DNA of 64,000 bases from Haloarcula rubra (lineage in GTDB: Archaea; Halobacteriota; Halobacteria; Halobacteriales; Haloarculaceae), in assembly GCF_019599465.1 (NCBI RefSeq), contig NZ_RKLR01000007.1, positions 1 to 64,000 on the forward strand, written 5' to 3'. The notes beneath the pieces were generated by a model. The model was given only the letters and a program-made list of their open reading frames with translations, did not search any database and was not told where the DNA came from. This document shows positions 25,066-34,900 of this stretch, piece by piece. Positions within the stretch are counted from its first letter, which is position 1; every line of letters begins with the position of its first letter. The translations under genes were made by a program, and so were the position numbers.

Positions 25066-25998
25066 TCAGTCCTCGCTGGTCGCCGCTTCGAGTGCGTCGT
25101 CGGGTTCGACCCAGATGACGAACTGGTCGTGGTCCTCCCGGTCGACGACGCCGCGGACGTACTCGGCGTCGACCGGCGGGTCGTTGACCTCCGACTCGGC
25201 GACGGGGACGACCTGCCGGACGCTGTCGACGACCCATCCGACGGCGCCCTGTTCCTCGAACACCTCGGGGTCGAAGACGACGATGAGGTCCTGACTGCCG
25301 TCCTCGGGGATGTCCATCATCTGCTTCGGTTCGAGGATGGTGGTAATCTGCCCGCGCAGGTCGACGACCCCCTCGACGTAGTCGGGCGTGTTCGGGACCC
25401 GCGTCACGGCGTCGCGCTTGACGATTTCCTCGACGTACTCGATGTCGAGACAGTAGTACTCCTCGCCGAGGGCGAACTCCAGTACGCGGACGAGTTCCTC
25501 GGTCTGGGTCGCCGCTTCGTCCATCGCGGCGCCGCGTGCGCCCTCCGTCCGACCGGTCTGGCCCGTCGCCATCGCCTCCTCGAGGAGTTGCTGGTCGGGG
25601 AGTTCGACGCCGGTCGGGCCCTGCATCGGGGACGCTGTCGCCGAGACGTCGCCGGGTTGGGTCGCGGTGCCGGCGTCGGCGTCGGTCCCCTCGCCTGTAA
25701 TCTGTGCGGCGGCGGCCGCCGCCCGTTGGGCCACCTCTGTCGGGTCCGCCTCGGTCCCGGAGTCCTCGCCGGCCGCCTCCGTCTCGGCGTCGCCCTCGGT
25801 GGTCGTCTCGACGGGTGGGTCGTCGGTCGTCCGCTCGGAGTCGGACGTGTCGGTGCCGGGCGCCTCGGCGTCCGTCTCGGTGGTCCGCTCGTCCGTCGAC
25901 GCGGTCGATTCGCCGTCGTCGGCTTCGTCGTCGTTCCTGTTCCCCGTGCGCATCTCCCTGATACGCTCTGCTCGGTCCATGCGGTCGTCGTCACTCAT
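25066..25998 (-). CDS. CheW-like taxis coupling protein with a long acidic N-terminus
   Basis: A 310-residue protein. Residues from about 165 to 300 form a CheW domain: RVLEFALGEEYYCLDIEYVE, then VKRDAVTRVPNTPDYVEGVV, DLRGQITTILEPKQMM and a matching second half. The first 160 residues are a low-complexity Asp/Glu/Thr/Ala-rich linker, probably disordered. CheW links receptors to the kinase CheA. No cheA or receptor is adjacent; instead the start overlaps the end of the ParA-type gene by four bases, a strong sign that the pair is translated together. Confidence 0.85.
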   Translation of the reverse strand: MSDDDRMDRAERIREMRTGNRNDDEADDGESTASTDERTTETDAEAPGTDTSDSERTTDDPPVETTTEGDAETEAAGEDSGTEADPTEVAQRAAAAAAQITGEGTDADAGTATQPGDVSATASPMQGPTGVELPDQQLLEEAMATGQTGRTEGARGAAMDEAATQTEELVRVLEFALGEEYYCLDIEYVEEIVKRDAVTRVPNTPDYVEGVVDLRGQITTILEPKQMMDIPEDGSQDLIVVFDPEVFEEQGAVGWVVDSVRQVVPVAESEVNDPPVDAEYVRGVVDREDHDQFVIWVEPDDALEAATSED

Positions 25999-26888
25999 GC
26001 TGTTACCTCAGTGTAGCCGAACTGTTCGTCGAGCGTCGCGGCGATGTCGCTGAAGACGTCGGCCATGTCACAGCGCTCCTCGGTCGCGAAGATGGACTTC
26101 CCCTCGGTGTAGGCCCGCTGGAGGGCCACGCGCTTGCGGACCTCCCACACGGGACTGTCCGGGAACGCGGCGTCGAACCACTCCAGCATCATCTCGTCCT
26201 CGGACGTCGTCTCGATGCGGTTCGCCACTACGCCCAGCGTCCCGATAGTGGTCCCGGTCTGGCGCTCCATGGCGGCCATCTGGTCCATCAGGAGTTCGAT
26301 GGCTCGCTCGGAGGTGGCTTCGGCCAGCGCCGGGATGAGGATGTTCCCGGCGGCGTACACGCCGGTGTCGGTCAGTTTCCCGTAGAACGGCGGCGAGTCG
26401 ACGACGACGTAGTCGTAGCCCGTCACCGTCTCCAGCGCGCGGTCCAGCGTGTCCAGCGCGTGGTCGCCGGTCACCGTCTCCGGCGTGACGTTGATGGCGA
26501 ACTGCGAGAGCGCCGCCGGGTCGACGTCGTACCCCTGCGTGCGGACCCGGGCGACGAGGTCCGCGATGGTCAGTTCGTGTTCCGCCTGGAGCATGTCGAT
26601 GCTGGAGGGAACCACGTCCATCTCGTCGTGTTCGACCACGAGGTCACCCAGTAGCGTGGGGTCGCTCGTCAGGGCGTCGAACAGCGTCGGTGGCTGGGCG
26701 TCGTACACTTCGGTGAGGCCCAACCCTTCCGTCGCGTTGCCCTGCGGGTCGAGGTCCACGAAGAGGACGTCCCGGCCACGGTCGTTCAACGCACCGGCTA
26801 CGTTGATGGCTACCGTCGTCTTGCCGGTCCCGCCCTTCGCGTTCGTCACGCAGATGCGAGCGGGGTCGGTCGTTGCGTGCCGGCTCAT
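25995..26888 (-). CDS. ParA/Soj-type ATPase paired with CheW
   Basis: A 297-residue protein with a deviant Walker A, KGGTGKTT (residues 18-25; Lys18 is the signature lysine), Walker A-prime VFVDLDPQGNATEGLG-like (seen as FVDLDPQGNATEG) and VVVDSPPFYGKLTD. These ATPases dimerise with ATP and position DNA or protein clusters. There is no ParB partner nearby. Its overlap with the CheW-like gene suggests it places a taxis complex, as ParC/ParP systems do in some bacteria; that is inference. ATG at 26888 was chosen because the longer GTG start falls inside the TATA box. Confidence 0.85.
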   Translation of the reverse strand: MSRHATTDPARICVTNAKGGTGKTTVAINVAGALNDRGRDVLFVDLDPQGNATEGLGLTEVYDAQPPTLFDALTSDPTLLGDLVVEHDEMDVVPSSIDMLQAEHELTIADLVARVRTQGYDVDPAALSQFAINVTPETVTGDHALDTLDRALETVTGYDYVVVDSPPFYGKLTDTGVYAAGNILIPALAEATSERAIELLMDQMAAMERQTGTTIGTLGVVANRIETTSEDEMMLEWFDAAFPDSPVWEVRKRVALQRAYTEGKSIFATEERCDMADVFSDIAATLDEQFGYTEVTA

Positions 26889-26921
26889 CGTCGAAGTGGC
26901 TCCACCTCGGTCGTGGGTCAC

Positions 26922-26931
26922 TATAAAAATA
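26922..26931 (-). promoter_or_regulatory. TATA-like box of the ParA-CheW pair
   Basis: Reads ATTTTTATAG on the minus strand, about 34-43 bases before the chosen ATG. A GAGGTGG sequence between box and start could serve as a ribosome-binding site. Confidence 0.45.
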
Positions 26932-27050
26932 CGCCCCCGATTATCAACGGCGTAACTCGGGGCCGGCAGACGAATCGGCGGGCAGGCGGCGTGAGCGAGC
27001 GTCTGACGGCAGTCAGACGGGGTGCAAGATTTAACTTAGCGTAGATAAAA

Positions 27051-27055
27051 TGGAG
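27051..27055 (+). promoter_or_regulatory. Ribosome-binding site before the ArlD/E-like gene
   Basis: GGAGA five bases before the ATG, in a spacer also carrying the A+T-rich tract atttaactta about 25-32 bases upstream. It supports the start at 27061. Confidence 0.4.
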
Positions 27056-27060
27056 AAGAT

Positions 27061-27558
27061 ATGACTATCAATCCGCGCGACTACGACCTCGACGAGTTGC
27101 GCAAGATGGCTCGCAAGCGCGGTGACCGGAGCGGCGGGGTGGGTGACGACGAGGAGATGCCGGACCCGTCGAATCTGGGAGTAGGGCTCGAAGACGCCGA
27201 CGAGGAGGTACTGGCTGGCAGTTCCTTCCGGTCGGGGCTGTACCGCGAACTGCTCCCGTTCCTCGCCGGCGACGGACAGGAGAAACCGTACCTGACCTCG
27301 CTGCCAGAGACGTACGCCGCCGAGTTCGTCGTCTTCGAGTGGCTGGAGTTCCTGTTGATGCACTCCGGGTATCAGGGCGCCGACGAAGCGCTGGACTACT
27401 ACGAGTCCATCGACTGGATAACCGAGGCCGTCCAGTCGGACCTCTCGGACTACCTGCTGGGCATCGACGAGTCCTCGACCAACGACGGCAACGACCTCAG
27501 CGTCGACGACCACATGCTGAGTCTGGTGTACATCGCGAAACTCACCGCGATGACCTGA
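27061..27558 (+). CDS. ArlD/ArlE (FlaD/FlaE)-family archaellum accessory protein
   Basis: A 165-residue acidic protein. Residues 75-140 (PYLTSLPETYAAEFVVFEWL, then SIDWITEAVQSDLSDYLLGI) match the conserved FlaD/E domain that helps assemble the archaellum cytosolic ring and links it to taxis signalling. The N-terminus (NPRDYDLDELRKMARKR) is a charged helix typical of haloarchaeal members. It stands apart from a visible archaellum operon; here it lies between a CheW-ParA pair and an actin gene. Call rests on pattern memory, so moderate. Confidence 0.75.
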   Translation: MTINPRDYDLDELRKMARKRGDRSGGVGDDEEMPDPSNLGVGLEDADEEVLAGSSFRSGLYRELLPFLAGDGQEKPYLTSLPETYAAEFVVFEWLEFLLMHSGYQGADEALDYYESIDWITEAVQSDLSDYLLGIDESSTNDGNDLSVDDHMLSLVYIAKLTAMT

Positions 27559-27590
27559 GGTCGGTATCAGCGCTGATTCTTGACGTGAGG

Positions 27591-27597
27591 TTATATA
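27591..27597 (+). promoter_or_regulatory. TATA box of the actin-like gene
   Basis: TTATATA, 29-35 bases before the ATG at 27626, predicting a near-leaderless transcript and expression separate from the ArlD/E-like gene. Confidence 0.5.
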
Positions 27598-27625
27598 CCG
27601 GGGCGGCGACAACACGCCACCGTAC

Positions 27626-28690
27626 ATGAGTGACGACGACGCGGAGGCCAGTGGTGGAAGTGGCCGTTCGGTCCCTATCGGTGTGAAACTCGGTAGCACC
27701 CGGACGGTCATCGCCCTCCCCGACGAACACGGGACCGAGAACCGCATCATCAAGACGCTGACCTGCATGGCCACCTACGAGGACGCGCTGACCGGCGAGG
27801 AGAAGGTCCTCTACGGCGAGGAGGCCGCCCGCGAGTACCCCGACCGCGTACAGTACATGCTCCGGTCGGGCCTGCCGGAGGACAGCGACCGCGCGGAGAT
27901 GACGAAGACGTTCTTCGAGGCGCTCATCGAGGAGAACGACCTCCCGGCCGACAGCGGTGTCGTCTACGCCATCCCGACCATCGACAATCCCACCGGACTG
28001 GAGAACCTCCGGGCGGTCATCGAGGACTCCTCCATCGGCCTCGACATGGTCGAGAGCTACCCCGAGTCGCTGTGCGGGTCGATTCCCGCCTTCGGCGACG
28101 ACCTCGAGGCCATCGACGAGATATTCATCTCGGTCAACATGGGGTCGACGAACCTCGAAGCATCTGCCTACCGCCGCGGCGAGCAGCTCGCGCCGTTCAC
28201 GACGGGCGCGGTCACCGGCAACGAGGTCGACCGGATGATAGCGAACTACGTCGAGGAGGAGACCCAAGGTCGGGTCAACATCGACACCCAGACCGCCCGC
28301 GAGTACAAGGAGGAACACGCCGACTTCGAGGCGTTCGAACCCTTTACGGACATCATCCAGCAACCCGGCGGCGGCACCCACGAGTTCACCATCGAGCGCT
28401 CGGTGATGGACGCCGTCGACGAGTATCTGGACGACGCCGTCGACGAACTCGCCAACACCTTCCTGCCGGAACTGGCCAACGACTACATGAAGGTGTACAA
28501 GTTGGCGCTTGACCGCCCCGTCGTCCTCACGGGCGGGATGGCCTGCATCCCCGGCATCGTCGAGGAGTTCGAGCGACGACTCAGCGAGGAACTGAACCGG
28601 GAAATCGAGGCGACGGCGGCCGACCAACCGGACGTCGCACCGACCGTCGGCGCACAGCGCATCGCCGCGCGCCTCGTCGAGAACAGCTAA
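27626..28690 (+). CDS. Haloarchaeal actin homologue (salactin/volactin type)
   Basis: A 354-residue actin/Hsp70-fold protein. Phosphate-1 region GVKLGSTRTVIALP, phosphate-2 region FISVNMGSTNLEASAYRRG and adenosine motif VVLTGGMACIPGIVEEF are in the usual order. It resembles the haloarchaeal actins described as salactin in Halobacterium and volactin in Haloferax, dynamic filaments tied to cell shape and chromosome or pole organisation. An acidic 15-residue tail precedes the fold. It has its own TATA box, and its stop overlaps the stop of the convergent small gene. Confidence 0.85.
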   Translation: MSDDDAEASGGSGRSVPIGVKLGSTRTVIALPDEHGTENRIIKTLTCMATYEDALTGEEKVLYGEEAAREYPDRVQYMLRSGLPEDSDRAEMTKTFFEALIEENDLPADSGVVYAIPTIDNPTGLENLRAVIEDSSIGLDMVESYPESLCGSIPAFGDDLEAIDEIFISVNMGSTNLEASAYRRGEQLAPFTTGAVTGNEVDRMIANYVEEETQGRVNIDTQTAREYKEEHADFEAFEPFTDIIQQPGGGTHEFTIERSVMDAVDEYLDDAVDELANTFLPELANDYMKVYKLALDRPVVLTGGMACIPGIVEEFERRLSEELNREIEATAADQPDVAPTVGAQRIAARLVENS

Positions 28691-28863: not shown

Positions 28864-29075
28864 GGCGCTGGCTATGGAACCATGATTTGTAAACCTCAGT
28901 CAGACGCCCGTCTGCCGTCTCGACAGTCGGAAAGCCGCACACAAAGGTAATTGAAGGACGGAGCCATAATCACGCTATCGACGCGAGAAAGTAAGGTAGA
29001 TACCGGAAAATTCCACCGAGTATTATCGGATTAGATAAGTGAATATCATAGTCACCGACGCTGTACGCCGTATTG

Positions 29076-30956
29076 ATGGGTCAGGTTATCAAAGTAGATA
29101 ATCGAGGGGGTACCACACCCGACGTACTCACTCGGATCGGACAGGGTGGGTTCCTGTCCACGGGCTATCTCTGCGACCGGCCGGCCGCGGCGGTCCTCGA
29201 CGACGCCGAGACACCACAGTTCGTCCTCACGAACCGCAAGAACGGCGTCAGTATCGAGTCTCCGTCGTCGACCGACCACGTCACGCCGGGCAGTGGGTAT
29301 CGGACAGTCGCCGTCCTCACCGACCGCCGCGTCGTCGTCCTGGTGGGTGACGCGGACGGCGACACGCAGTTCGCCGTGCCACTGGTCGAAATCGAACAGG
29401 TCGAACACACGACGAGCATCCGGCGCGGTCGGCTCACCTTCCGCCGCGAGGGCGGGTCGACGTGGCACGTCCACACCGGGGCCGACGGACTGGCCGAGGT
29501 CGCCGACTACCTCGCCGCCGCCTCGCAGGCCTGGATACGCGTCGAGAACGAGTGCAACAGAGTCACACAGACGCTCGTGACCGCCACGGACCACAGGGAC
29601 GACGGCGAGTACGACGAGGCGCTCTCGACCGCTCGGCGCGCCGAGGACCACCTCGAAACCGCGCGGGCGACGGCGTTGCGGTTCTCGACGGACCGACCCG
29701 GCGACGCCCTCCGCAAGCGACTGGACCCGGTCGAATCGCGCTGTGTGAACACCGTCGCCGAGATTCGGGTCGGCCGCGCCAGACAGGCCACGGACGAGGG
29801 CGAGGCCCACTGGCGCGAGGACGACTACGAGGCCGCCTACGAGGCCTACGAGCGCGCCCGGAGCGAGTACGAGGCCGTCCTGTCGCTCGACCAGACCCGC
29901 CTCGACGACGTCGAGGGGATACGCGAGGAACGGGAGCGCCTCGACCGCATCGTCGGCCACCTCGAACAGTCGCCGCTCCGTCGTGCCGTCAGGGCCGACA
30001 ACGCGGCCGTCGACGCGGACGACCCGGCCGTCGCGGCCGACCGCTGGACGGAGGCGATGGCTCACTACCGGCGCGTGCTGGAACTGGACTGGGGGAGCGG
30101 CGACCGGCGTTTCGCGGGCGACCCCGAGAAGGTGCGCGACCGACTCGGGACCGTCGCGGAGCAACTGACCGGGGCCCAGCGAGCGGTCGCCGTCGACGCG
30201 ATGCGGGCGGGGGACTGGTACAGCGACGCCGAACAGTACGAGGCGGCACTCGCGGAGTTCGAGGCCGCCGCCGAGGCCTTCGAGACGGCGCTCGCGACGG
30301 CCCGGGACTGCTACCCGGACGCGGTCGACCACCTCGAAGCAGAACGCGAGGCGGTCACACAGCGTATAGAACGGACCGAAGCGATACTGGCCGGCGACGA
30401 GGTGGGCGACCACATCGAGGGCGACGCGGACCCGGACTACTCGGTGACGGCGACCATCGGCGACCCGGTTCCGGAGGACGACGGCCCGACGGCCATCGAG
30501 GCGGCCATCGAGTCGACGGGGACACGGCCCGGGCCGTCCCTCACCGGACAGGGTGCCCCGGAGTCGACGGCGGCGCGCCTCCGTCGACTCGACCAGCACG
30601 AACTGACGGCGGTGGTGGCAGACGCCCTCGACGAGACGGTGTGGTCGACCGCCGAGGCCGACCAGTCGCCGTTCGACCTGCTCGTCCGGCGGGACGACGA
30701 CGTGATGGGCGTCGTCGTCGCGGACTCGGGGGACGAGGCGGTGGGTGCGGCGGCCGTCGAGCGCTGTGCCGACCTCGCGTCCGACGACGACGTCGACGCG
30801 GCGTTGCTCGCGGCGGCGGTACCGCTCGAAGACGGACTCTCCTCGCTCGCGGCCGAACGGGACGTGCGAGTCCTCGACGGCGGCTCGCTCTCGGCTATCG
30901 TCGACGCACAGGACGTCGCGCTCCCGGAGTCGACGCGGCGCGTTCTCGAGGAGTAA
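29076..30956 (+). CDS. Multidomain protein: PH-like domain, TPR/coiled-coil array, degenerate Mrr-like nuclease domain
   Basis: A 626-residue soluble protein. Residues 1-145 resemble a PH-like beta barrel (QFVLTNRKNGV, YRTVAVLTDRRVVVLVGDAD). Residues 150-450 are acidic helices with TPR-like alternation (YEAAYEAYERARSEYEAVL, AEQYEAALAEFEAAAEAFE). The C-terminus (about 490-626) follows the pattern of Mrr-type PD-(D/E)XK domains (LRRLDQHELTAVVADALDE, PFDLLVRRDDDVMGVVV, RDVRVLDGGSLSAIVD). The first Asp is kept in PFDLL, but the usual Q/E-x-K after it is replaced by VVVADS, so it is probably inactive and may only bind. ATG at 29076 was chosen over a TTG one codon upstream. No obvious partner except the downstream zinc-ribbon gene. 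Confidence 0.7.
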   Translation: MGQVIKVDNRGGTTPDVLTRIGQGGFLSTGYLCDRPAAAVLDDAETPQFVLTNRKNGVSIESPSSTDHVTPGSGYRTVAVLTDRRVVVLVGDADGDTQFAVPLVEIEQVEHTTSIRRGRLTFRREGGSTWHVHTGADGLAEVADYLAAASQAWIRVENECNRVTQTLVTATDHRDDGEYDEALSTARRAEDHLETARATALRFSTDRPGDALRKRLDPVESRCVNTVAEIRVGRARQATDEGEAHWREDDYEAAYEAYERARSEYEAVLSLDQTRLDDVEGIREERERLDRIVGHLEQSPLRRAVRADNAAVDADDPAVAADRWTEAMAHYRRVLELDWGSGDRRFAGDPEKVRDRLGTVAEQLTGAQRAVAVDAMRAGDWYSDAEQYEAALAEFEAAAEAFETALATARDCYPDAVDHLEAEREAVTQRIERTEAILAGDEVGDHIEGDADPDYSVTATIGDPVPEDDGPTAIEAAIESTGTRPGPSLTGQGAPESTAARLRRLDQHELTAVVADALDETVWSTAEADQSPFDLLVRRDDDVMGVVVADSGDEAVGAAAVERCADLASDDDVDAALLAAAVPLEDGLSSLAAERDVRVLDGGSLSAIVDAQDVALPESTRRVLEE

Positions 30957-31390: not shown

Positions 31391-33556
31391 ATGGTAGAGT
31401 CGCGACGTGTCGGCTGTCTGTTCGTCGACGCCTGTTCCGACGAACAGGCAGCAGCGTACGAGTGGTGCGAGGAGACGTTCGACGACGTCGAGCGGTGTTC
31501 CCTCGCAACTGTCGACCCGACCGACTACGACGTCCTCTGGTGGCACCGGGACGATCCCTTCGACGGGGAGGCGGTCGCGGGCCCCGAAGGAGAGGCACTC
31601 GCCACCTACGTCCGGTCGGGCGGGGCGCTCCTGCTGACGCTCGGTGCGATGGCCGCCGTCGAACCGCTCGGGTTCGACCCGGTCGGCCCCGACGCGGTCG
31701 GGTGGGAGGAGATTCCGGAACCCACGGGACCGCTCTGGAAGGCGCTGTACGCCGACCACCCGGTCGCCGAGGGGTTCGACACGCTCCGCGTCCACACGCG
31801 CGGTCCCGGGGTGACGGTGCCCTACGCCCGATACGAACACGTCGCGCCGATGGAGGGCGACGTCCTCGCCAGCACGGCGCGGGGCGACACCGACGTCGTG
31901 AAAGGGATGGCGACAGTCGTCTGGGAACCCGACGAGGGACGCGTCCTCGGCATCGGTTCGGCCGTCTCCTTCCGCCAACCGACCCACGACATCTGTCACC
32001 GCAACCGCGAGACGCTCGTGTCGAACGCGCTGGAGCACCTCGTGGACGGCGACGCGGTCGGGTTGACCGGCCGCCCGAAAGACGTGGCGACGCTGACGGA
32101 GATGCGCGGCGAACTGGCCGACGACTCGCTCCGCCCGACGTACCACGTCACCCCGCCGGCAAACTGGCTCAACGACCCGAACGGCCTCATCCACTGGAAC
32201 GGGCAGTACCACCTGTTCTACCAGTACAACCCGACCGGTCCCTTCCACAACACCATCCACTGGGGCCACGCGGTCAGCGACGACCTGATACACTGGGAGG
32301 ACAAGCCCGTGGCGCTCTCGCCGTCGCCGGACGGCCCGGACCGGGACGGCTGTTGGTCCGGGTGTGCGGTGGACGACGACGGCACCGCGACAATCCTCTA
32401 CACCGGCGGCCGGGACAAGAAGCAGTTGCCGTGTATCGCGACGGCGGCCGACGAGGACCTCTCGTCGTGGGTCAAAGACCCCGACAATCCGGTCATCGAG
32501 GAGACGCCCGCCGAACCCGAAGTCCTCCGGACCGAACACTGGGAGGGCGAGTTCCGCGACCACTGCGTCTGGCGCGAGGACGGCGTCTGGCACCAACTCA
32601 TCGGCGCCGGCATGGAGGGCGGCGGCGGCGCGGCCCTGCTGTACGTCTCCGAGAACCTCCGGGACTGGGAGTACCGTGGGCCCATCCTCAGCGGCGACCG
32701 CGACACCGCCGGCACCGTCTGGGAGTGTCCAGAACTGCTGGACTTCGGCGACAGGTACCTCCTGCACGTCTCGAACTACGAGGACGTGGTGTACTTCCTC
32801 GGCACCTACGAGGACGGCGAGTTCACGCCCGAACGCCGGGACAAACTCGACCACGGCGACTTCTACGCGCCCCAGTCGATGTGGACCGACGACGGCCGCA
32901 TCCTCACGTGGGGCTGGGTTCCGGAGGCACGGGACGTGAGCGCCCAGTGGGACGCTGGCTGGTCCGGCACCATGTCGCTCCCGCGCGAACTGACGCTGGC
33001 CGACGACGGCGGCCTCTGTCAGCGGCCCGCGCCCGAACTGACCGACCTCCGCGGGGCCAACACCCACCACGACGAACTCCGCCTGTCGAGTGGGGACCGC
33101 CGGCGTCTGGACGTCGAGAGTCGCACGTTCGAACTGCGTGCGACGGTCCGACTCGAGGACGCCGAAGCCGTCGAACTCTCCGTGCTGGAGACGCCCGACC
33201 GGGCCGAGCGGACGCCGGTTCGATACACCCGTAACAGCGAGATATTCGTCGACCGCTCGACGTCGAGCCACGACCAGCAAGCGACCACCGCCACCCAGCA
33301 GATGCGTGTCACGCCGTACGACTCGCCCCTGTCGCTACGGGTGTTCGTCGACGGGAGCGTCGTCGAAGTGTTCGCCAACGAGCGCCACTGCCTGACCAGT
33401 CGGGTCTACCCGACGAACGAGGACGCGACCGGCGTCTCGCTGGCCGCCGAGGGGGGCCGTGCGACGGTGGCGTCGCTCGACGTCTGGGAGATGGAGAGTG
33501 CGTGGGACGCGGAACGCGACCCGAGTCCCCGCGAGAAACCGTCGATACGGCGCTGA
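31391..33556 (+). CDS. GH32 fructosidase with an N-terminal amidotransferase-like domain
   Basis: A 721-residue protein. Residues 1-220 look like a class I amidotransferase or ThuA-like fold ([23 protein letters not shown]), without a convincing catalytic Cys-His pair. Residues about 250-540 are a GH32 five-bladed propeller: nucleophile Asp262 in [15 protein letters not shown] in place of the RDP motif, and general acid Glu445 in WECPEL. The C-terminal beta-sandwich ends with [20 protein letters not shown]. It should hydrolyse sucrose, levan or inulin linkages. No signal peptide is seen, so it is probably cytosolic. Convergent with a GH68 gene, one base apart from stop to stop. Confidence 0.88.
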
Positions 33557-33557
33557 T

Positions 33558-34877
33558 TCAGTCGGAGGCGTAGCCGCCGCGGTCGTCGTCGTCCGTCTGG
33601 GCACGGCGAATCAGTTCCCGCTCGGTCGGCGGCAGTTTCTCACCGGCCATCGGGACGTGCCAGTGACCGAGTTTGCCGACGATACGTGTCTTCGTCCCTT
33701 CGACGGTCAGTCTGAGCGTCGGGCCGAGCGTCCCGCCGAAACGTCGCATCTGCTCCGACTCGGGGAGGTGGGCGATTTCGTCCAGCGTCTCCCCCGCGAA
33801 GTCGTAGTAGTTGAAGAAGCTCTGGACGAGCACCTCGTCGTCGTGGGGGAACGCCATCCACGAGTACGACTGGAACGGCGCGTTCTCGGGATTCGTCGCG
33901 ACGAGGCCCGACTCGTTCAGCGGGACGTAGTCGCCGCGCAGTTCCTCCGCGACGAAGCCGTACAGTGCGTCGTACCCCTCCAGCCCCGGCGCGAACGTGT
34001 GGAGGTGGCTGGAGATGAAGAGGTAGTACAGGTCGTCCGTGTAGACGATGTGGGGCCGTTCGAGTTCCTGGTTGACGCCGACGGCGTCCAGTAGCGGGTC
34101 TTCCAGTTCCCACTCCAGTGGGTCGCCAGTCGGCGAGCGTGCGATGCCGACGCTGCCGTTGAACCCCTGCTGGGCGGCGTCGCCGTCACACACGTCGCTC
34201 CCCTCGGGAACGGGTGAGTTGGCCTCGAAGAGGAGCCACGTCTCGCCCGTCTCGGGGTCCTCGAAGAACCACGGGTCGCGGAACGTGTATATCATCGCGC
34301 GGGACTGGTCCTCGCGCTCGTAGCGCTCGCCGTCTGGGTGGAGGAGTTCGTGGTGGGTCCACGGGCCGCGCAGGGAGAACCCCTCGGCCGTGTCGATGGT
34401 GCCACCGCCGGCCCCGACGATTCGCTGGCCGTAGGTCAGGTCGTCCGCGCCGTCCTCGCCGGCGGCGGTGTAGAACAGGTAGACCGAGCCGTCGTCGTCG
34501 TACAGCGCCGACCCGGCCCACTGGCGCTGACCCAGTGCGTCCTCGAAGACCGGGCCCCCGTCGTGCCAGTCGCGCCCGTCGTCCGAGTAGAAACAGCGGA
34601 TGTTCGCGACGTCGTGGCGCTTGCCCGGCAGGAGGTCCGAGGGCGCGGTCAGCGAGAAACAGACGCGGTAGCCGTCCACCTCGGCGAGCGTGCCGTCCCG
34701 GTTGCGCAGGAACCACGTGTCCCAGATGTGGAGGTGCGGAATCTGGTCGTCCTCGGGCGGGTAGATGACGGGCGCGACGGTGTCGTCGGTCCGTTCGATG
34801 CGTGCCGCGTGTTCGCGTGTCCAGCCGGCGCGGGCTCTGAAACCGGGAGCCCCGTCGCCGAGCGAGTCGTTAGCCAT
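33558..34877 (-). CDS. GH68 levansucrase/inulosucrase-like fructosyltransferase
   Basis: A 439-residue enzyme that splits sucrose and can build fructans. Nucleophile Asp53 in HIWDTWFL, stabiliser Asp201 in FRDPWFF and acid/base Glu273 in NQELERPH complete the GH68 triad; FQSYSWMAFP and PTERELIRRAQ are also family-like. No signal peptide or membrane segment is visible, unlike exported bacterial levansucrases. ATG at 34877 was chosen; a GTG six codons upstream is possible. A TATA-like ACCCTTATCC is 24-33 bases before the ATG. Confidence 0.88.
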   Translation of the reverse strand: MANDSLGDGAPGFRARAGWTREHAARIERTDDTVAPVIYPPEDDQIPHLHIWDTWFLRNRDGTLAEVDGYRVCFSLTAPSDLLPGKRHDVANIRCFYSDDGRDWHDGGPVFEDALGQRQWAGSALYDDDGSVYLFYTAAGEDGADDLTYGQRIVGAGGGTIDTAEGFSLRGPWTHHELLHPDGERYEREDQSRAMIYTFRDPWFFEDPETGETWLLFEANSPVPEGSDVCDGDAAQQGFNGSVGIARSPTGDPLEWELEDPLLDAVGVNQELERPHIVYTDDLYYLFISSHLHTFAPGLEGYDALYGFVAEELRGDYVPLNESGLVATNPENAPFQSYSWMAFPHDDEVLVQSFFNYYDFAGETLDEIAHLPESEQMRRFGGTLGPTLRLTVEGTKTRIVGKLGHWHVPMAGEKLPPTERELIRRAQTDDDDRGGYASD

Positions 34878-34900
34878 GCTTCGGTGTGTGTCCACGACCG

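Follow-up and report, generated by a model that had tools for sequence, protein, structure and literature searches.

A conserved ParA-CheW gene pair beside arlD and salactin in Haloarcula rubra as a candidate positioning module for chemoreceptor arrays

The window analyzed herein, a stretch of 64,000 nucleotides from Haloarcula rubra (RefSeq assembly GCF_019599465.1, contig NZ_RKLR01000007.1, positions 1 to 64,000 of the forward strand), carries four adjacent genes that an earlier sequence-only reading had described as encoding a CheW-like protein, a ParA-type ATPase, an ArlD/E-like archaellum protein and an actin, and all four were confirmed at the claimed positions with the domains assigned to them. 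On the reverse strand, the gene designated here as cheW* (25066–25998) encodes a ParA-linked CheW-domain adaptor of 310 amino acids (PF01584, E = 3e-23 over residues 172–304), and parA (25995–26888) encodes a Soj/ParA-type deviant Walker A ATPase of 297 amino acids (AAA_31/CbiA, E = 5e-31). The four-base overlap reported for these two genes was likewise borne out, as they share ATGA, with the start of cheW* lying within the stop of parA. A putative TATA-like box, TATTTTTATA, was read from the sequence at 26922–26931 on the same strand, approximately 33 nt 5' of the parA start. Divergently from this pair, on the forward strand, arlD (27061–27558; PF04659, E = 9e-30) encodes a stand-alone ArlD, an archaellum switch/motor-base protein, and is followed after 67 bp by the gene for the haloarchaeal actin salactin (27626–28690), whose product scored 619 bits against the Pfam Salactin model and 601 bits against the NCBIfam salactin equivalog model NF053533, above the cut-off of 400 bits. 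A further TATA-like box read from the sequence, TTATATAC (27591–27598, forward strand, approximately 28 nt 5' of the salactin start), suggests that salactin may have its own promoter.

The ATPase of the window possesses the Walker A sequence KGGTGKTT, which together with the other Walker motifs was invariant and agrees with the KGGxGKT signature of the ParA/Soj family, and its closest solved structures were Soj/ParA proteins, not MinD. Membership in the MinD family, including orthology to MinD4, was therefore rejected, as the protein scored approximately 40–56 bits against TIGR01969 versus an archaeal MinD cut-off of 201.75, and its nearest structures were of the Soj/ParA type. Several MinD homologues are encoded in the same genome, on contigs C11, C22 and C33, and two of these scored above the cut-off. 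The nearest relative of the window parA was found in Haloarcula pellucida (91% identity). Unlike in a ParABS system, the partner of this parA is a CheW protein, and no ParB-like gene adjoins it. OE4643R of Halobacterium was considered as a ParA-like partner of CheA and rejected, the paper concerned naming it a DUF151 protein.

CheW* showed a tripartite build, in which an N-terminal basic peptide (residues 1–21, MSDDDRMDRAERIREMRTGNR; 25936–25998), proposed to activate ParA and bearing the motif RAxR[IL]RxxR, is followed by an acidic low-complexity linker (residues 22–165; 25504–25935; predicted local distance difference test score mostly 40–67) and a CheW domain (residues 166–304; 25087–25503), all on the reverse strand. 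The same three parts were present in all CheW* proteins, with linkers of 67–259 residues rich in D/E/S/T/A. An alignment of 33 sequences revealed that R9, A10, R12 and R17 of the peptide are identical in 33/33 homologues and that A142 is the sole conserved linker column, the mean majority fraction falling from 0.75 over residues 1–20 to 0.30 in the linker and rising again to 0.68 in the CheW domain. In the AF2 model, residues 3–17 form a helix, the linker is predicted with low confidence and the CheW fold with high confidence. Furthermore, the residues named as forming the receptor groove of T. maritima CheW (L14, V27, I30 and V33; PMC5706961) aligned with L173, I186, V189 and I192 of CheW*, and among these columns three were invariant and the fourth was occupied by V or I. 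The arrangement of a short basic N-terminal peptide ahead of a linker and an interaction domain matches the build of the ParA/MinD activators ParB, MinE, ParG, PomX and probably TlpT, in which such a peptide is grafted on an interaction domain (PMC7993993), and by analogy the peptide of CheW* may stimulate the ATPase of its cognate ParA. In Haloarcula rara (L043:10890–11990), the adaptor motif and the CheW domain lie in different frames, reflecting a frameshift or a sequencing error.

A ParA-anchored scan of named genomes yielded 80 loci. Within the Haloarculaceae, cheW* directly followed parA at every one of the 37 fully flanked loci, and the genera bearing the pair comprised Haloarcula, Halosimplex, Halapricum, Halomicrobium, Halorientalis, Salinibaculum, Halorhabdus and Halovenus. 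The Natrialbaceae, represented by Natrialba, Natrarchaeobius, Halopiger, Haloterrigena, Halobiforma, Natronorubrum and others, also possess a ParA of approximately 50–55% identity followed by a CheW gene (13 loci, plus one cut by a contig end), the product of which begins with MTDDRARRIRxLRNR. Here the pair lies within a che cluster: cheA/cheB adjoin it at 13 loci and cheF at the fourteenth, cheB and cheA, often joined by cheY, precede the pair on the opposite strand, or else cheF follows it, and a second cheW, cheF, cheR or cheC is often near. This location thus ties the pair to taxis independently of the surroundings in our window, where the queries for che and arl genes matched only the genes named above and one weak HEAT protein, as expected from the earlier statement that CheA, receptors and an arl operon are absent. 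No signal domain of a methyl-accepting chemotaxis protein was detected on the contig of the window (C35); a complete che-arl cluster (contig C22) and at least 10 receptors are encoded elsewhere in the genome. Most of the che-cluster CheWs of other Natrialbaceae-like and related genomes, which were checked for hidden ParA neighbours, proved ordinary and without the peptide. At one locus (L223, G020:C1:452000–471000, approximately 15.7–17.6 kb), where cheB and arl genes are near, a ParA of approximately 36% identity adjoins a CheW whose linker is long and whose N-terminus differs, and this pair is possibly a third recruitment.

Eighteen ParA relatives in the scan, several of them on plasmids, had no CheW neighbour. 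At nearly all of these loci, the next gene overlaps parA as ATGA and its product begins with MSDDxRADRLRRRR and an acidic linker, and ends in another domain, GTYMYLP...FEKNRHFYPLVV, for which neither a Pfam search nor a fold search gave a match. These plasmid-type loci (L084–L113, with the partner at L100:10789–11211 as an example) encode a family annotated as hypothetical and without a Pfam entry, and homologues of the partner occur on 69 plasmid records from haloarchaea and in several cases adjoin an annotated ParA. At a nineteenth locus (L081, a metagenome bin), the motif was combined with a CheW domain. When the 936 acidic open reading frames of the 80 loci were scanned for R[AS]xR[ILV]RxxR near a methionine, 70 matched, one per locus, and every one of these was the ParA partner. 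On the simplest reading of these sequences, the peptide would belong to ParA and the C-terminal domain would choose the cargo.

These observations bear on the alternative that CheW* merely provides some of the receptors with a second, ordinary coupling protein, with ParA as a passenger serving another cargo such as the chromosome. The intact CheW domain is compatible with such a role, as is the presence in Halobacterium of two CheWs with different partners, one of which binds receptors but not CheA (PMC3579733). This alternative, however, leaves unexplained why the ATGA overlap is nearly universal, why an invariant basic peptide is common to CheW* and the plasmid ParA partners, and why the pairing recurs in parallel in the Natrialbaceae, and we regard it as quite improbable. 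It would be more surprising still if ParA/CheW* were a remnant of chromosome or plasmid partition whose CheW domain, no longer connected with taxis, now serves as an adaptor that binds DNA or membrane: while ParA does nest among plasmid-type ParAs, such a remnant is at odds with the che-cluster location in the Natrialbaceae, the conserved receptor-groove residues and the stable chromosomal position across the Haloarculaceae.

In a 72-row ParA tree, the CheW-linked proteins of the Haloarculaceae (99/86) and of the Natrialbaceae (100/100) formed separate clades with plasmid-type ParAs between them. A single origin of the CheW-linked ParAs was tried and rejected as a single clade by the approximately unbiased (AU) test (p = 0.0007), although change counts cannot tell gain from loss. 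The CheW domains also fell into two clades (AU, p = 0.004), in a tree of few columns and long branches. The separate clades of both proteins favour two recruitments, in which the cargo domain was probably swapped to CheW once in the Haloarculaceae and once in the Natrialbaceae; one recruitment followed by reversion is the less favoured alternative.

The gene order and its conservation, the domain build, the identity and specificity of the motif, the groove residues, the che-cluster location in the Natrialbaceae and the separate clades, all of which are observed, led us to consider it probable that parA-cheW* constitutes a ParA module that positions chemoreceptor arrays as its cargo, and that it arose from a plasmid ParA/adaptor pair of haloarchaea by a swap of the cargo domain to CheW. 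In the proposed mechanism, ParA-ATP would dimerize and bind the nucleoid, and CheW* would join the arrays via its CheW domain fitting the groove of the receptor tip, with the flexible acidic linker giving it the reach to ParA. The peptide RAxR[IL]RxxR would then stimulate ATP hydrolysis so that ParA is released and moved, and the CheW*-bearing arrays would follow, or space themselves on, the resulting ParA gradient. The arrays would in this way be spaced or held at the poles and passed to both daughters. Since several MinD homologues coexist in the genome, the module probably adds to MinD-based polarity rather than replacing it. The earlier proposal of a system positioning taxis or archaellum machinery accordingly survives for the ParA/CheW-adaptor module, with its occurrence in two families, its place in the Natrialbaceae che cluster and its three-part build, and is unsupported for the four genes as one system.

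Several points weigh against the positioning module. This parA was missing from 5 of the 24 sampled genomes of family f1, and in the window the pair is located far from the che cluster of the genome. ParA could be dispensable, because the genome encodes MinD homologues and because MinD4 and MinD2 of Haloferax affect the positioning of both the array and the archaellum (PMC11588486). The chief role of CheW* could be that of a coupling protein in signalling. In addition, we infer the cargo role of the plasmid partner from its location, given its unmatched C-terminal domain, and the few columns and long branches of the CheW tree tell in the same direction.

The divergent neighbours form a second conserved pair. 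The protein described as ArlD/E-like does belong to the PF04659 family, but it is not an extra member, being the only stand-alone ArlD of the genome; the sole other PF04659 protein is the ArlCE of the arl operon. Motile haloarchaeal genomes typically encode two such proteins, an ArlCE fusion in the arl operon and a stand-alone ArlD, and the N-terminal signature NPxxYDxxELR of the window protein is common to the ArlD beside ArlCE in other families. No solved structures were found for ArlD. In the haloarchaeal genomes sampled, arlD was situated immediately upstream, on the same strand, of 46 of the 62 salactin genes (f4, 30/31; f1, 16/24; f2, 0/6), with gaps of 57–368 bp, and in the family search the sole f5 salactin case was also linked to arlD. 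In families f2 and f3, taken as Halobacteriaceae and Natrialbaceae, ArlD is usually found near ArlCE. In a class-wide sample of 116 Halobacteria genomes, ArlD/E was present in all 60 salactin genomes and salactin in none of the 24 genomes without detected ArlD/E, counts that are uncorrected for relatedness.

In Haloferax, ArlD is required for archaella and ArlD-GFP is polar (PMC6509185), and the arlD-salactin unit would link this essential protein of the archaellum base to an actin that is polar and shows dynamic instability. The expectation that the neighbours of the ParA pair concern cell poles or motility thus held good, one of them being ArlD itself. The salactin of Halobacterium salinarum falls in the same equivalog family as the window actin; the study describing it reported poor synteny and a deletion without motility defect (PMC10746226), and the published mutants of salactin and volactin swim normally (PMC10746226, PMC10869688). 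The reported poor synteny contrasts with the usual position of salactin directly downstream of arlD outside f2, and the link appears to be absent or lost in Halobacterium, the organism of that study.

Whether the two pairs act together was weighed from their juxtaposition. All four genes occurred together in 29 of 47 Haloarculaceae loci, which is above chance, and parA-cheW*-arlD without nearby salactin was found at 6 further loci of the family. At 26 diverged loci, however, arlD was retained beside parA in 17 and the flanking oxidoreductase gene NDH in 18, and in the Haloarculaceae the juxtaposition therefore does not exceed background synteny. Four-gene adjacency was accordingly rejected as proof of one system on this flank control, NDH and mvaD being similarly conserved. 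Moreover, arlD stands beside parA only in the Haloarculaceae, most other haloarchaea having arlD-salactin without parA-cheW. Neither pair was reduced in other genomes to single members in unrelated neighbourhoods. The locus is consequently best described as two conserved pairs side by side, for which a joint four-gene function is possible.

The stronger claim that the four genes are one polar organizer, in which ParA/CheW* positions the arrays, the archaellum base is placed or segregated by ArlD together with salactin filaments, and the two sides cross-talk, would find support in the 29 complete loci, in the 6 where arlD stays by parA-cheW*, in the standing of arlD as the common link (it adjoins salactin in other families and parA in the Haloarculaceae), and in the polar localization and necessity of ArlD (PMC6509185). 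We nevertheless hold it unlikely, as only one family shows the juxtaposition and the unrelated NDH equals it, three of the sampled genomes, from genera g6 and g7, hold all parts but apart, deletion of salactin in Halobacterium caused no motility defect (PMC10746226), and the positions of array and archaellum are independent in Haloferax (PMC6509185). If true, a single organizer coupled via ArlD would mean that the sensing and swimming machines are inherited together. At the other extreme, the genes might owe their proximity in the Haloarculaceae to shared descent and all be functionally unconnected, in keeping with the frequent retention of the flanking mvaD and NDH. This is the least credible of the readings, already disfavoured by the recurrence of each pair in other families in different surroundings.

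Beyond the four genes, a 627-residue protein with weak similarity to tetratricopeptide repeats (29073–30956, forward strand) adjoins salactin and lies near it in 16/37 Haloarculaceae loci. The convergent neighbours at 31391–34895 encode glycoside hydrolases of families GH32 (levanase/invertase type) and GH68 (levansucrase type), that is, the making and breaking of levan at one site, and were kept in 11/37 related loci.

What is known of the placement and inheritance of archaeal arrays comes solely from the MinD proteins of a single species. With parA-cheW* there is now a candidate of the ParA type that would be dedicated to this task and that, its docking peptide being defined, is testable by point mutation in the genetically tractable Haloarcula. 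It also presents a natural domain-swap experiment, in which one ATPase/peptide family is combined with an adaptor either for plasmids, as presumed, or for chemotaxis, the latter apparently recruited twice; salt-loving archaea seem to have put an ATPase for sorting plasmids to new use in positioning sensory arrays, by attaching the docking peptide of its partner to a chemotaxis protein. The linkage of salactin to arlD, for its part, is the first broad genomic clue to the role of salactin, and suggests studying it outside Halobacterium, where the link appears to be lost.

In the literature searched, no description was found of an archaeal ParA-CheW pair or of an arlD-salactin link; in bacteria, it is well established that che operons can include a ParA gene (PMC2829493). 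Among the characterized systems, the Haloferax volcanii MinD4/MinD2 proteins (PMC11588486) belong to the same ParA/MinD superfamily in haloarchaea but are MinD, whereas the window ATPase is of the Soj/ParA type and is paired with a CheW protein of its own. PomX/PomZ and other ParA/MinD activators (PMC7993993) share the short basic N-terminal peptide, unstructured stretch and interaction domain, but act on other cargo, and the haloarchaeal peptide family serves two cargo domains within one archaeal class. In ParC/ParP of Vibrio (PMC5706961), a ParA-family ATPase is likewise encoded with an adaptor bearing a C-terminal CheW-like domain, ParP consisting of an N-terminal ATPase-binding part, a long proline-rich linker and a CheW-like AIF domain that enters the receptor arrays. 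CheW* has three parts as well, but its linker is acidic, its domain is a canonical CheW and its peptide matches the haloarchaeal plasmid ParA partners, and the window pair lies outside the che cluster; no polar anchor was identified for ParA/CheW*. In PpfA/TlpT of Rhodobacter sphaeroides (PMC3964821, PMC7993993), a ParA-like ATPase moves a chemoreceptor cluster and the basic N-terminus of TlpT is the suggested activator, but TlpT is a receptor, whereas CheW* is a CheW protein whose only domain is CheW. Because the adaptor is no receptor and its linker and domain differ from those of ParP, we assigned the module to neither system; by analogy, it would work like PpfA/TlpT or ParC/ParP but have been assembled independently.

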